Virus record (IMG/VR): IMGVR_UViG_3300032249_000480
Location: 1-64,000 of that record
Source of the DNA: a virus
Strand: one strand, 5' to 3'
DNA length: 64,000 bases
Made by a program: the position numbers and the translations under genes. Below are positions 3,893 through 16,998 of this stretch, in pieces (position 1 is the stretch's first letter; each line of letters starts with the position of its first letter). The notes beneath the pieces were generated by a model. It was not told the DNA's origin and did no database searches. It was given only the letters and a program-made list of their open reading frames with translations.

Positions 3893-4909
3893 CTATGCTA
3901 GTTGCATAACATTTTGTACAACTTTTAGCAGACGATTCTTTTCTGCGTTAATAGCAGGGTCAAATCCACTAGCACTTGCAAGGATAGATTCGTTAGAACC
4001 ACCGCGAGCAGAACGATACCAGTCAAGGCGCTCAGTTAGTGCATTGAAAGCACCCCACGCATTACCAGCAATCATGCCATTGAATTCACCAGTGTAAATG
4101 TCGTTAATAACATCTACCTTGTTTTCCCATTTCTTGAATGAGCCTTTTGCATCTGCATCAGGCTTTGGGTATGCTGCAAGAATAATGTCGTTAAACATTT
4201 TAGCATCAACAGTCTTTTCAATCATTGCCTTAGCCATGATATCAAATTCGTCCATGTACTTATTAGCCATGCCAAGAGTTTCACGTGCAATTTGCACTTT
4301 ACCATTGGCAGTTTGTGTGTGACGAATCTTGAAAGATTGCTTGACGCCATCTTTTTTCTTAGTACGATTTAACGCAAGGTTAAGAGTATTAGCGCACACA
4401 ACACGAACAGGTGTGATGCTTGCTTGAATTGCGATTGAGCCATCGTGTGATGTGTTAATGAGAAGATAAGTTTTAACCTTATCTGCTACACCATTTGGGT
4501 CTAGTACAGTTTCACGCTCTAGTGCTAATGCACCAAATACAACGCGACCACCCTTGATTGAGCCAGCGGTTTCCCAACGTCCACCACCATCTAGTATGTT
4601 ATCACCAAATGAGAATAAATCTTCATTCTGTAAAACATGGTAACGCTCACCAACAACACCCAAAACATCTGTTTGTGTATTTGTTGTAGGATTTGTGCGA
4701 ACAACGTATTGGTATTCCTTGTCGCTTGTTAAGTGTGATGGGATAGGCATGTCTTCAAGACGAACATTCCAACCATTTAGATTTGCTGCTGCGAGCATTT
4801 CTGATGTTGATTTTTCTTCTGTGAAAACAGTACCCAATCCATGCCATGCGGGTTCACGGAATGATGCAAAAGATGCAACGCCGTTTTGAGTTTCTAGGTC
4901 ATGTGCCAT
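3893..4909 (-). CDS. DUF932 / TIGR03299-like phage-plasmid protein
   Basis: 338 residues beginning MAHDLETQNGVASFASFREPAWHGLG. The AWHGLGT block near residues 21-27, the GVVGERYHVLQNEDLFSFGD segment around 85 and the ITPVRVVCANTLNLAL segment around 165 are typical of the DUF932 family (phage/plasmid-like protein TIGR03299). The family is widespread on phages and plasmids, with no established biochemical role. A GGAAA Shine-Dalgarno and a promoter at 4942-4970 precede it. It is cotranscribed with the tRNA downstream. Confidence 0.85.
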   Translation of the reverse strand: MAHDLETQNGVASFASFREPAWHGLGTVFTEEKSTSEMLAAANLNGWNVRLEDMPIPSHLTSDKEYQYVVRTNPTTNTQTDVLGVVGERYHVLQNEDLFSFGDNILDGGGRWETAGSIKGGRVVFGALALERETVLDPNGVADKVKTYLLINTSHDGSIAIQASITPVRVVCANTLNLALNRTKKKDGVKQSFKIRHTQTANGKVQIARETLGMANKYMDEFDIMAKAMIEKTVDAKMFNDIILAAYPKPDADAKGSFKKWENKVDVINDIYTGEFNGMIAGNAWGAFNALTERLDWYRSARGGSNESILASASGFDPAINAEKNRLLKVVQNVMQLA

Positions 4910-11338: not shown

Positions 11339-11403
11339 TGTGATGTACGTCATGTGGATAACTTGAGCGTAAATTCGTAGTGTGATGTGTATCATGTGGA
11401 TAA
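11339..11403. promoter_or_regulatory. two Crp-like sites interleaved with two DnaA boxes
   Basis: TGTGATGTACGTCATG (11339-11354) and TGTGATGTGTATCATG (11381-11396), each running directly into TGTGGATAA (11353-11361, 11395-11403). The composite unit is repeated 42 bp apart. Confidence 0.5.
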
Positions 11404-11421
11404 CTTTTTGGCCCGAGAAAA

Positions 11422-11487
11422 TGTGGGCTATATCACATGCGACACGCCGTGTTTAGACTTGACTTTTGGGGGGTAGTGTGATAGGAT
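11422..11487 (+). promoter_or_regulatory. composite rightward promoter, copy 1
   Basis: Crp-like TGTGGGCTATATCACA (11422-11437), 3 bp, GACACGCCG (11441-11449), 9 bp, TTGACT (11459-11464), 17 bp, TAGGAT (11482-11487). All distances equal those of the copy at 11573. Confidence 0.65.
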
Positions 11488-11516
11488 ACTCCTATACAAA
11501 TAAATAGAGATAGATA

Positions 11517-11580
11517 AGGTTAATGAGCCTACCAAATAAGGCGAACAGATGTTCGCATGAGCGTAGCAAATAAGTAACCT
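11517..11580 (+). ncRNA. structured leader RNA 1, double internal-loop motif
   Basis: Predicted nested helices: AGGTTA/TAACCT (11517-11522 with 11575-11580), CTAC/GTAG (11529-11532 with 11563-11566), GCGAAC-AGAT-GTTCGC (11541-11556). They are separated by two facing copies of an internal loop, ATGAGC opposite CAAATAAG. It begins about 23 nt after the likely transcription start of promoter copy 1. No coding frame is evident. The fold is inferred by eye. Confidence 0.5.
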
Positions 11581-11638
11581 AAATCACACAAGACACGCCG
11601 TAGCAAGGCTTGACTTTTTGACATTTCTATGGTAGTAT
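11573..11638 (+). promoter_or_regulatory. composite rightward promoter, copy 2
   Basis: Degenerate Crp-like AGTAACCTAAATCACA (11573-11588), 3 bp, GACACGCCG (11592-11600), 9 bp, TTGACT (11610-11615), 17 bp, TAGTAT (11633-11638). An overlapping TTGACA-17-TACTAT 10 bp further on could also serve. Confidence 0.65.
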
Positions 11639-11664
11639 TCTACTATAACAATTAAATAAGAAAT

Positions 11665-11702
11665 CCTAAGTGAGCCCCTAGCAATAGGGCAAATAAATTA
11701 GG
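11665..11702 (+). ncRNA. structured leader RNA 2, single internal-loop motif
   Basis: CCTAA/TTAGG (11665-11669 with 11698-11702) encloses GTGAGC (11670-11675), the hairpin CCCTA-GCAA-TAGGG (11676-11689) and CAAATAAA (11690-11697). The loop strands match those of leader 1 while all helices differ in sequence, which is the covariation pattern of a conserved RNA motif. Confidence 0.5.
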
Positions 11703-11752
11703 TCAAGGAAATAGTTAGCACAAGGCTAACGAATTAACGAAAGGTTCACAAT

Positions 11753-11935
11753 ATGAACACTATAACTAAAGACTTAGTAGCAGAGTATGGCTCTAGCATA
11801 CTATCTAAGAATAACCCTTACCCAAAGGGTACGCTCTCACTAAGAGAGTGCCAAATCCTACTAAACAAGTATGGAGTAGAAAAGGCTACGCTAATTGTTA
11901 AGCGTCATGCCTCACTAAGAAAGGTAAGTAACTAA
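11753..11935 (+). CDS. hypothetical basic protein
   Basis: 60 residues, MNTITKDLVAEYGSSILSKN.... Helical, with a basic C-terminal half (VKRHASLRK), so a small DNA-binding protein is possible. A GAAAGG Shine-Dalgarno precedes the ATG. It is expressed from the rightward promoters through the structured leaders. Confidence 0.72.
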   Translation: MNTITKDLVAEYGSSILSKNNPYPKGTLSLRECQILLNKYGVEKATLIVKRHASLRKVSN

Positions 11936-11937
11936 AT

Positions 11938-12105
11938 ATGAAAATCAAATACTCACTATGGCAAGGCTCACGCCTACTAAGCATTAACAATATCGCTAGT
12001 GACATCAAGTCTATAGATGTCCTAGTCGCATCATTAAACGATAGCGAATTAGGTAAAAAAATTAAATTCGCTGCCAATGTTATGGAAATAGATACTAACG
12101 CATAG
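11938..12105 (+). CDS. 55-residue hypothetical protein
   Basis: MKIKYSLWQGSRLLSINNIA.... It starts 2 bp after the previous stop, so it is co-translated. Hydrophobic/charged alternation suggests a compact fold; no family recognised. Followed by a strong terminator. Confidence 0.68.
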   Translation: MKIKYSLWQGSRLLSINNIASDIKSIDVLVASLNDSELGKKIKFAANVMEIDTNA

Positions 12106-12125
12106 GATATATATAACAGATCAAG

Positions 12126-12160
12126 TAGTGAGTGCTATTGTGTGCTCACTATTTTTTTTG
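12126..12160 (+). terminator. strong intrinsic terminator
   Basis: TAGTGAG (12126-12132) pairs perfectly with CTCACTA (12145-12151), then T8. It ends the 11753-12105 operon. Confidence 0.8.
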
Positions 12161-12711: not shown

Positions 12712-12912
12712 TCACCATTTGTCAGCAGGGCATTTGGCTCTTGCCAGAGTAGTCTTTAACTCCATAAAACATCCACATAATCTACAAGTTCTAGTTGTTT
12801 GTCTAAAATGTTCACAAGTCTCACATATCGCAAGGCGATCTGCTTTTAACTGTTCTTCACTTCTTGGCTCTCTTGGATTAAGTAAATCCCAAGGTTTGAC
12901 ATCATCGCTCAT
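12712..12912 (-). CDS. zinc-ribbon phage protein
   Basis: 66 residues. After an acidic N-terminus, CETC (about residues 30-33), CRLCGC (43-48) and CP near residue 61 form the pattern CxxC...CxxCGCFM-x-LKT...CP-x-x-KW, found in many short phage zinc-ribbon proteins of unknown function. The -10 box TGATATACT (12919-12927) ends 6 nt before its ATG, predicting a leaderless mRNA starting inside the end of the neighbouring gene. Confidence 0.78.
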   Translation of the reverse strand: MSDDVKPWDLLNPREPRSEEQLKADRLAICETCEHFRQTTRTCRLCGCFMELKTTLARAKCPADKW

Positions 12913-12914
12913 TA

Positions 12915-13517
12915 TTAAAGTATATCAAGTTTTTCGGGGGATCCAATCAAAGACTCATTTACTTTGGTCCATAACTGATATGACATACTAGGAGATATAT
13001 AAGCAGATAAGCCTATAGCATCCAAACACCATATATCTCCTTTTTGATACCACATAGCAGAGTTATAGTCAATAGATTGTTTGTCAAAGACAAATAAATA
13101 ATATATCTTGTTTTCAAATTTTTCGGGGATAGAAGACCAATCTTGGTCTGCTTTGGCTAAACATACATATAAATCTGCACTAGTATCTACAACGTGTCCG
13201 ACCATATCTTCTATGGTTTTATGTTTACCTAGCCTAGAGCCAGAGAACTTGAGTATGTTTTTCTTAATGTCATATACGCCTGATTTGACACTTATGCTTG
13301 GACCTTCATCTATAGTCATATCTACCGATACTGAGTGTGATCTGTTTGGTTTCCAATCATTATCCATACCGTTTTCTTTTAAGGCATCGGCGATTAACTC
13401 TTCTAAAAATTCACTCGTACACGGTAGACGATAGACACTATGATGTATTTGTAATTTATTTGTTAGAGCATTTGCTAAAACAGTTTTAAGGGTATGTGTC
13501 CAGTTATCATATGACAT
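12915..13517 (-). CDS. putative PD-(D/E)xK-like nuclease
   Basis: 200 residues. An N-terminal helical part (FLEELIADAL) is followed by SVSVDMTIDEGPSISVKSGV (about residues 62-81), where D and S-V-K follow the D-x(n)-(D/E/S)-x-K core of restriction-type nucleases. Then comes FSGSRLGKHKTIEDMVGHV. This resembles standalone restriction-endonuclease-like proteins, but the match is by eye. No methyltransferase lies next to it. TATAAT lies 6 nt before the ATG (13524-13529), so it is probably leaderless. It could target host DNA or competing phages. Confidence 0.45.
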   Translation of the reverse strand: MSYDNWTHTLKTVLANALTNKLQIHHSVYRLPCTSEFLEELIADALKENGMDNDWKPNRSHSVSVDMTIDEGPSISVKSGVYDIKKNILKFSGSRLGKHKTIEDMVGHVVDTSADLYVCLAKADQDWSSIPEKFENKIYYLFVFDKQSIDYNSAMWYQKGDIWCLDAIGLSAYISPSMSYQLWTKVNESLIGSPEKLDIL

Positions 13518-14644: not shown

Positions 14645-16998
14645 TGCCAGTTGTTAAAGTTATCCCCGTAAATAATCCAACTTCTAAAGTAAAGGTTGTT
14701 CCAACTACCTCTGGATCAGACGTTGTTAAAATTGTTGAAGCACCTGGACGTACTGGACTACAGGGAATAATCGGTGCTCAAGGTATTCAAGGTGCCCAAG
14801 GCACAACAGGTGCTCAAGGTTTGCAAGGTCGTCAAGGAACTCAAGGTGTTCAGGGAACTCAGGGAACATCAGGTATTCAAGGAATACAAGGTACTCAGGG
14901 AATTCAAGGGATTCAAGGTAATCAAGGAACTTTGGGAAATCAAGGTATCAATGGTTCACAGGGTATAAATGGAATTCAAGGATTTACTGGTTTACAAGGA
15001 ATTCAGGGATTTGTAGGAACACAAGGTTTTACTGGAAATCAAGGTGTCTTAGGAGCACAAGGTCTTAGAGGCACACAGGGAATTCAGGGCCATGAAGGTC
15101 TTCAGGGCATTACTGGATTACAAGGATTGCAGGGTCGCACAGGATTGCAGGGCTTTATTGGTAATCAAGGTGTGTCGGGTATTCAAGGAAATAATGGACT
15201 ACAAGGATTTAATGGCATCCAAGGAAGTCAAGGATTTTATGGCATTCAAGGTTTTACTGGTTCAGAAGGAGTTCAGGGAACTCAAGGAATTCAAGGTGAA
15301 CCTGGTGCAACTGGTAATACAGGTGATGGTGGTATTCAAGGATTTGCTGGAACTCAAGGTACTAATGGTTTGCAAGGTTTGCAAGGTCGTCAAGGCACAA
15401 CAGGAGCACAAGGTGCAACAGGAACTCAGGGTTTACAAGGAAGACAGGGCACTACAGGACAGCAAGGTATTACTGGTACTCAAGGTATTGATGGCATTCA
15501 AGGTAATGATGGCGCACAAGGTTTAATAGGAATACAAGGAGTTACAGGTTCTCAAGGTCTTGATGGTATTCAAGGAATAACTGGAGCGCAAGGAACAATT
15601 GGCACACAAGGAATTATTGGTAGCCAGGGTGTTCAAGGTATAAATGGTATTCAGGGAGTACAAGGTAATACTGGTGCAAGCGGTACATCATCATCTATAT
15701 TTGATTATGTAGCAAGGGCTAATTCACAAACACCACCACCTAATAATGGTCAAATTATGTGGAGTAATTCAACACAAATTAATTCAGAAAACATTTATGT
15801 ATCTCACATAGATGACAGAAATGAAGACTTAGATTTCTTATTATCAAACATTAAAGATAATGATATTTTTTTTATTCAAGATAGAAACAACTCTAACAAT
15901 TATCAAAAATGGGAAGTAAGCGGCACACCTTCATCTGTTACTCACAGTTACTTTACTTATCCTGTAATTCTTTTAGAGTCAGGTGGAACAGGCACAACAA
16001 ACTTTAATAATACCCACCAACTTGCTCTTATTACTCAAAGCGTTGGTGTTCAAGGAACAACTGGTACACAGGGAACTATTGGCTCTCAAGGCACTCAAGG
16101 CTTACAAGGCATTCAAGGTAATAATGGAATACAGGGAACTGCTGGTACTCAAGGACTTGTTGGTGCTCAGGGTCAAACAGGCGCACAAGGTATTGAAGGC
16201 TTGCAAGGTGCTCAAGGTATTCAAGGTTTAACAGGATCCCAAGGAATAACTGGATCACAAGGTTTAGACGGTATTCAAGGAATAACTGGTCTAACAGGTG
16301 ACGATGGAATTGTAGCGCAAACAGATGCACCAACAAATACAAGTTTACTATGGCTTGATACAGACGAACCTGCTGCAATTACAGCAACTACTGTAGTTAA
16401 TTCTCCTATTACAAACTCTGGAACAGAAACAGCCGCAAACCTTTCATTTGATTACACAAATATTCTTGCCGCTTCAGGTCAATCCGCTACAGTCATTGAT
16501 GTTCCTAATAGAAACTTTGTACTTTCAAATAATAATGGAACTGCTGGAAATATAACTATGAGTTTTTTTACACCCCTCGTTAATTTAACAATAAGTCAAA
16601 TAACGATTGCTAGTGCTGGTACTCAAACAGGAGCGACTTTAATTAGATTAGGACTTTATACATTTGATGAAACTACAGCCACTCTTGTAGCAAGAACTGC
16701 AAACGATACAAGTTTATTTAATTCTACGTTTACAGCATTTACTCGCTCGTTTGATACGACAGGTGGGTATCCTTCGCAATATACTTTGCTTGCAGGTCAA
16801 AGATACGCATTTGCTTACATTATTGTCGGTGCTTCAAACATGCCTACAATTTACTGCTCTGCTTTAGGAAACAACACAGGCGGTGCCTTTGCTCAATTAG
16901 TCCCAAGAATGGCAGGGGTAAGAACAGGTCAAACTGATTTATTAGCCTCAACAACAATATCACAAGGAATTCAAATGCCGTATTTTAGGGGGTCATAA
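14644..16998 (+). CDS. collagen-like tail fibre protein
   Basis: 784 residues from a GTG that overlaps the previous stop (TAGTG); the frame is open further left but only inside the upstream gene. A short N-terminal domain (1-45) is followed by a long run of GxQ/Gxx triplets (about 46-345), a globular insert (about 346-460), a second collagen-like run (to about 555) and a beta-rich C-terminal domain (about 560-784). The triplets are unusually rich in Gln and poor in Pro. Such collagen-like stretches form trimeric fibre shafts in phages; the C-terminal domain is the likely receptor-binding tip. Confidence 0.82.
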   Translation: MPVVKVIPVNNPTSKVKVVPTTSGSDVVKIVEAPGRTGLQGIIGAQGIQGAQGTTGAQGLQGRQGTQGVQGTQGTSGIQGIQGTQGIQGIQGNQGTLGNQGINGSQGINGIQGFTGLQGIQGFVGTQGFTGNQGVLGAQGLRGTQGIQGHEGLQGITGLQGLQGRTGLQGFIGNQGVSGIQGNNGLQGFNGIQGSQGFYGIQGFTGSEGVQGTQGIQGEPGATGNTGDGGIQGFAGTQGTNGLQGLQGRQGTTGAQGATGTQGLQGRQGTTGQQGITGTQGIDGIQGNDGAQGLIGIQGVTGSQGLDGIQGITGAQGTIGTQGIIGSQGVQGINGIQGVQGNTGASGTSSSIFDYVARANSQTPPPNNGQIMWSNSTQINSENIYVSHIDDRNEDLDFLLSNIKDNDIFFIQDRNNSNNYQKWEVSGTPSSVTHSYFTYPVILLESGGTGTTNFNNTHQLALITQSVGVQGTTGTQGTIGSQGTQGLQGIQGNNGIQGTAGTQGLVGAQGQTGAQGIEGLQGAQGIQGLTGSQGITGSQGLDGIQGITGLTGDDGIVAQTDAPTNTSLLWLDTDEPAAITATTVVNSPITNSGTETAANLSFDYTNILAASGQSATVIDVPNRNFVLSNNNGTAGNITMSFFTPLVNLTISQITIASAGTQTGATLIRLGLYTFDETTATLVARTANDTSLFNSTFTAFTRSFDTTGGYPSQYTLLAGQRYAFAYIIVGASNMPTIYCSALGNNTGGAFAQLVPRMAGVRTGQTDLLASTTISQGIQMPYFRGS

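Follow-up and report, generated by a model that had tools for sequence, protein, structure and literature searches.

Put-type antiterminators act on the zinc-binding domain of the β′ subunit of RNA polymerase without a phage protein. In phage HK022, the putL and putR sites, located beside PL and PR, are structured antiterminator RNAs of two stem-loops on the early transcripts (PMC9378689). In cluster K mycobacteriophages, SAS, a 13-nt element (GGGATAGGAGCCC), is found next to translation starts and occurs 11 to 19 times per genome (PMC3203893). Here, we describe two leader RNAs with a common internal loop in a window of 64,000 nucleotides (positions 1 to 64,000 of IMG/VR virus record IMGVR_UViG_3300032249_000480; Table 1). 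The element that these leaders define is almost certainly a genuine structured leader RNA, and the RNA class is previously undescribed.

Table 1. Features of the leader region; positions are those of the window.
Feature	Position	Strand	Description	Basis
Promoter 1 (leader 1)	11459..11487	+	sigma70-type: TTGACT, 17 nt, TAGGAT	sequence, consensus scan
Leader 1 RNA	11517..11580	+	P1, loop UGAGC/CAAAUAA, P2 (CUAC/GUAG), inverted CAAAUAA/UGAGC, hairpin P3	fold, model match, covariation in relatives
Leader 1 P1	11517-11522 / 11575-11580		AGGTTA / TAACCT	
Leader 1 outer loop	11523..11574	+	TGAGC 11524-11528 / CAAATAA 11567-11573; closing A11523.G11574	
Leader 1 P2	11529-11532 / 11563-11566		CTAC / GTAG	
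Leader 1 inner inverted loop	11533-11539 / 11558-11562	+	CAAATAA / TGAGC; closing G11540.A11557	
Leader 1 P3	11541-11546 / 11551-11556		GCGAAC / GTTCGC	
CRP/GlxR-like palindrome, degenerate	11574..11587	+	GTAACCTAAATCAC; overlaps P1 3' arm	intact counterpart in relatives: DNA-level site for promoter 2
Promoter 2 (leader 2)	11610..11638	+	sigma70-type: TTGACT, 17 nt, TAGTAT	sequence, consensus scan
Leader 2 RNA	11665..11702	+	single loop UGAGC/CAAAUAA	fold, model match, single-loop relatives
Leader 2 outer helix	11665-11669 / 11698-11702		CCTAA / TTAGG	
Leader 2 loop	11671-11675 / 11690-11696		TGAGC / CAAATAA; closing G11670.A11697	
Leader 2 inner helix	11676-11680 / 11685-11689		CCCTA / TAGGG; GCAA tetraloop	
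Leader 2 second hairpin	11714..11730	+	GTTAGC ACAAG GCTAAC; upstream of ribosome site GAAAGG 11739-11744	sequence
First small gene after leaders	11753..11935	+	60 aa, no Pfam family	
Second small gene	11938..12105	+	55 aa, no Pfam family	
Strong intrinsic terminator of short rightward unit	12123..12158	+	AAGTAGTGAGTGC..GTGCTCACTATTT then T-run	

An earlier note on this DNA had proposed that both leaders carry the same loop strands between unrelated helices, and that in leader 1 the loop occurs twice, head to head around a central hairpin; every strand was found in its place, and the second loop of leader 1 is inverted within a fold as proposed. The minimum-energy structure of leader 1 is exactly this fold (-15.8 kcal/mol, z -2.73), and leader 2, when folded alone, likewise yields the proposed structure (-10.1 kcal/mol, z -1.51). 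A covariance model built for the motif matched leader 1 with 83.8 bits (11514-11583) and leader 2 with 26.8 bits (11661-11706) by cmsearch. While the bare TGAGC..CAAATAA pattern is not rare (3 matches in the window vs 0.81 expected), the full pattern is found only in the leader pair within the 104,786-base record. Leader 2 has exact copies in 6 IMG/VR loci, and in relatives its second hairpin has counterparts, recognized by eye, whose stems differ (e.g., GATAAC/GTTATC). An 89-nt fold suggested that leader 2 pairs with its ribosome site, but such pairing was judged not to be general, because the complement is absent from other ribosome sites.

A first scan of IMG/VR (TGAGCN{4,8}CAAATAARN{8,38}TGAGC) yielded at least 120 matches, most of which form the same structure; about 25 of these were chance matches in coding DNA and were excluded from the set of relatives. 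A stricter scan (TGAGCNNNNCRAATAARN{6,30}RTGAGCNNNNCRAATAA) also yielded at least 120 matches, and the two scans together place the two-loop form at no fewer than 145 viral-contig loci with 110 distinct double-loop cores. A lack of further examples in related phages, which the earlier note had named as refuting, was thus not observed. One narrow subtype, counted exactly, occurs at 30 loci in the whole of IMG/VR, with 4 among the matches listed for the first scan and 6 among those listed for the stricter scan; by proportion, IMG/VR would hold, as a rough estimate, several hundred motif-bearing contigs. Fifty IMG/VR records searched with the model contained 1 to 4 copies each, at essentially one place. 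A scan for single loops returned mostly chance matches; among relatives, single-loop leaders of the leader 2 type show about a dozen different complementary stems. Some leaders, as judged by eye, nest three loops, e.g., L032:11818 (CCTAG-TTGAGC-CTC-TGAGC-CTAC-CAAATAA-hairpin-TGAGC-GTAG-CAAATAA-GAG-CAAATAA-CACTAGG). The loop consensus is 5'-(R)UGAGC-3' / 5'-CRAAUAA(R)-3', its conservation being in part imposed by the scan patterns, and since a leader may have a single loop, two loops facing each other head to head on either side of a 4-5 bp helix, or three loops, we consider the loop to be a repeatable and invertible module.

The scan patterns fixed the loop letters and left P2 free, and this central helix of 4-5 bp was complementary in 110 of 110 distinct cores, with eight pair combinations (CTAG/CTAG, CTAC/GTAG, CTAAG/CTTAG, CTTAG/CTAAG, CTGAG/CTCAG, CTAAT/ATTAG, CTAT/ATAG, and CTAGG/CCTAG); the only three misses were matches straddling two adjacent leaders. 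In 104 distinct copies, the covariation score was 0.607 compared to 0.124 for shuffled and at most 0.111 for slid alignments (0.519 vs 0.117 shuffled for 47 aligned copies), for sequences that are related by descent and thus not independent. Pairing in the 104 copies was observed for P2 in every cell, for P1 in 86%, and for P3 in 98.7%, with covariation in P3 stemming partly from copies in which this helix doubles as a CRP-like DNA palindrome. The inner loop is closed by G.A in 54 and by A.G in 51 of the 110 distinct copies and never by A.A or G.G, and this non-canonical exchange points to an ordered loop; the outer loop is closed by A.G (63 of 110 copies), G.A (19), or A.A (12). In the inner four pairs of P1, G-U outnumbers A-C mismatches by 20 to 9, which is weak evidence for the strand. 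A chance origin was dismissed, because E-values among relatives reach down to 1e-21 and covariation exceeds that in shuffled copies. The view that conserved loops and covarying stems mark a functional RNA motif thus gains support, given covariation in all three helices, the G.A/A.G exchange, and the number of loci. A kink-turn reading was dropped on inspection, as the CAAAUAA strand lacks GA.

That the motif is not a known riboswitch or ribozyme, as previously suspected, is in agreement with searches against Rfam 15, which identified only a tRNA in the window at gathering thresholds and no match up to an E of 5 for positions 11400-11760 with lax filters. A blastn search with the consensus gave only 7 weak matches (E 2-6) in GenBank phages and none in plasmids, and an exact-pattern scan of 84,980 bacterial and archaeal genomes, using the 4-bp P2 form only, found no genuine copy; five matches in genome contigs were discarded as simple tandem arrays such as TGAGCaaagCGAATAA in which P2 is not complementary. 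As far as these searches reach, the motif appears to be restricted to phages. In its capsid maturation protease, the window shows approximately 44% identity to Streptomyces phages of the Stanwilliamsviridae, and relatives of this protease were found in 22 of the 50 motif-bearing records, mostly with 44-66% identity. Model R1 gave a single weak match (E 0.24), taken as chance, in five Streptomyces phage relatives, four of which are classified as Stanwilliamsviridae. The carriers are probably a large group of uncultured actinobacteriophages with freshwater actinobacteria as hosts, a host assignment that is based on the kinship of the protease along with mention of freshwater in the earlier note. 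Isolated Nanopelagicales phages E7 and F5 have genomes of about 39 kb (PMC10202952).

In relatives, the distance from the -10 box to the first UGAGC is nearly always 30-45 nt, with a mode of 36-37. Copies are located about 25-30 nt downstream of the early transcript start as predicted from sequence. Of the 101 TTGAYTTTT promoters identified in these loci, a type to which promoter 1 also belongs, 68 are followed by the motif. Adjacent copies are arranged divergently in 23 cases and in tandem in 17, but never convergently. While a riboswitch or gene-specific autoregulatory leader would be expected to accompany one pathway or gene family, the first downstream genes belong to more than 20 unrelated small families, which, together with the promoter-proximal placement, indicates that the RNA goes with the transcript start rather than with a gene. 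The earlier note had looked to further examples upstream of similar genes as a test; the examples exist, but the genes are dissimilar, and the element is hence gene-independent. Homologues of the 60-aa gene stand after leaders of other phages. Elsewhere in the window, the leftward early genes include a member of the mycobacteriophage Gp88 family (PF17338; 6935-7702, minus strand) and a DUF932 protein (3896-4909, minus strand), and the structural region encodes a protein with collagen-like GxxGxQG repeats (14821-16998, plus strand).

We consider the best reading of the element to be a promoter-proximal, cis-acting recognition RNA that changes the fate of early transcripts, and favour recognition at the transcript level because of gene independence, promoter-proximal placement, presence on divergent early units, and conserved loops. 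Strong early promoters give rise to transcripts in which the hairpin is predicted to form within the initial ~100 nt; each loop may be recognized by one dedicated putative partner, which could be RNA polymerase or an RNA-binding protein of the host or the phage, and the fate of the leader-bearing transcript would change once this partner is bound. Where the earlier note had allowed for an antitermination element, a protein-binding leader, or a small RNA, the way in which the copies are arranged speaks for an element acting in cis on the transcript rather than for a riboswitch or a regulator of one gene, with processivity control and mRNA control as candidate roles. Tentatively, we regard processivity control similar to put and nut as the most likely mechanism, in which the nascent leader would bind the transcription machinery and early transcription would become more processive, with less pausing and less Rho-dependent or intrinsic termination. 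Terminators to be overridden are scarce, however: in many contexts, the 6 kb after the leader contain no strong terminator in the sense orientation. Rightward units frequently stop at a strong terminator 0.4-1.2 kb further on, with terminator look-alikes at this distance past the rightward leaders of several relatives. The late genes seem to be served by separate GGTATAAT promoters, so that read-through into these genes appears unneeded; scarce terminators, nearby ends of rightward units, and late promoters thus make antitermination a leading guess only. A role in which antitermination at 12123 would carry transcription on into the late genes was marked down in view of these late promoters and of antisense genes at 12712-13517.

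A second possibility, which we consider somewhat doubtful, is an mRNA stability or processing element, whose loops would be recognized by a protein or RNase that protects the early mRNA or fixes its 5' processing. Such a role would suit a stable hairpin that is always near the 5' end, regardless of the gene, and that belongs to early units which are short and strong and have strong terminators. 5'-end blocking by an ompA-type stabilizer is, however, ill-matched to an A/U-rich tail ahead of the hairpin, here roughly 20 nt (AACAATTAAATAAGG), and a plain hairpin would need neither fixed loops nor the G.A/A.G exchange. We find it rather unlikely that the leaders are sites for a phage-encoded RNA-binding protein that serves as a coordinate translational off or on switch for early mRNAs. 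Several loops per leader would suit cooperative binding, and some phages have the end of the leader beside the ribosome site, 13-18 nt before the start codon; in many units, nevertheless, 50-235 nt that include a further promoter or leader separate the leader from the start, the leader would be missing from transcripts that begin at the second promoter of a leftward unit, and an unsystematic look at neighbouring genes identified no conserved RNA-binding gene. It is improbable that short leader transcripts act in trans as small RNAs or decoys that titrate a host factor, as the leaders are continuous with protein-coding units and are present in low copy number per genome, and neither leader 1 nor leader 2 is immediately followed by a terminator, even though strong promoters, a compact stable fold, and repeated loops would fit this role.

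The DNA around the leaders carries signals of its own. CRP/GlxR-like palindromes (GTGRN6YCAC; the GlxR consensus is TGTGANNTANNTCACA, PMC4254451) occur in 60 of 93 double leaders, 43 times within P3 and 17 times immediately behind the leader but never in both places, at recurring, near-fixed distances from the next -10 box; further palindromes of this type are found in the window at 11340-11355 and 11382-11397. While this overlap would fit a DNA-level element of protein-binding repeats with an incidental RNA fold, such an origin is very improbable, since covariation of P1 and, across a variable insert, of P2, the G.A/A.G swap, nesting of one to three loops, and strict orientation downstream of promoters all fit RNA. 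Some promoters retain the CRP-like site without loops, and the palindrome is therefore best read as the DNA site of the following promoter, sharing letters with the RNA hairpin. A host regulator of the cAMP-receptor type may thus possibly control phage early promoters.

Additional candidate control elements were observed alongside the leaders. At TTGACTTTT promoters in the window (11482-11496 and 11633-11647) and in relatives, the -10 box and the start region are covered by a palindrome whose arms vary together; palindromes of at least 5 nt were present at 44 of 104 promoters as compared to 13 when shuffled. Start codons are found inside short covarying palindromes behind the ribosome site in the window (11744-11758, plus strand; 11226, minus strand) and in early genes of relatives (e.g., GAATTCA-A-ATGAATTC and AAAACA-AA-ATGTTTT), with at least 5 complementary nt in 109 of 860 genes vs a shuffled mean of 16, which suggests that start-codon hairpins may provide a second layer of early control. 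The sequence GGTATAAT, without an obvious -35 element, is located a few bases before late-gene start codons (14210, 19420, 21165, 27200, 36915, and 46380) and represents a candidate late promoter class. Finally, the terminator at 12123-12158 recurs at L010, L067, L008, L028, and L081 with GTGCTCACT in its 3' arm; GCTCA in this arm is complementary to the loop sequence UGAGC, perhaps by chance.

Widespread, uncatalogued structured RNA classes with comparable covariation are uncommon. The motif is tied to how a large uncultured phage group starts its infection programme and thus offers an entry into early gene control, and the modular nature of the loop makes its partner readily testable. It is conceivable, but quite unlikely, that the motif is a protein-independent processivity RNA whose loops, which can be stacked in one to three copies and in both orientations, dock on the RNA polymerase of actinobacteria during its escape from early promoters, and thus an independent invention of the HK022 put function. 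If RNA polymerase were indeed modified, the motif would join put as a second known type of phage antitermination RNA that works without a protein.

At the level of the loop, the motif strands contain a facing UAA and GAG, which resembles the UAA/GAN internal-loop motif; the leader loop (UGAGC/CRAAUAA), however, is larger and is closed by G.A/A.G or standard pairs. Like the leader motif, SAS/ESAS is repeated, includes inverted repeats, and precedes small non-structural genes of actinophages (PMC3203893), but our motif goes with the start of transcription and occurs 1-4 times, whereas SAS is found at translation starts; GGGATAGGAGCCC was not seen when the leader sequences were read by eye. The lambda nut site (boxA/boxB, N protein) is likewise a promoter-proximal RNA tag on divergent early transcripts; in our motif, by contrast, the internal loop is duplicated head to head, and inspection by eye recognized no boxA-boxB layout in the leaders. 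HK022 put is the nearest known case. It differs in consisting of two stem-loops in a lambdoid E. coli phage, as compared to one stacked hairpin with 1-3 internal loops in actinophages and few terminators downstream, and neither two adjacent stem-loops with the conserved put sequence nor any sequence relation was recognized in our motif. Like put, however, the motif is a structured RNA of ~65-70 nt near the early transcript start that requires no particular downstream gene, and left and right copies are located just downstream of the early promoters of both early units.
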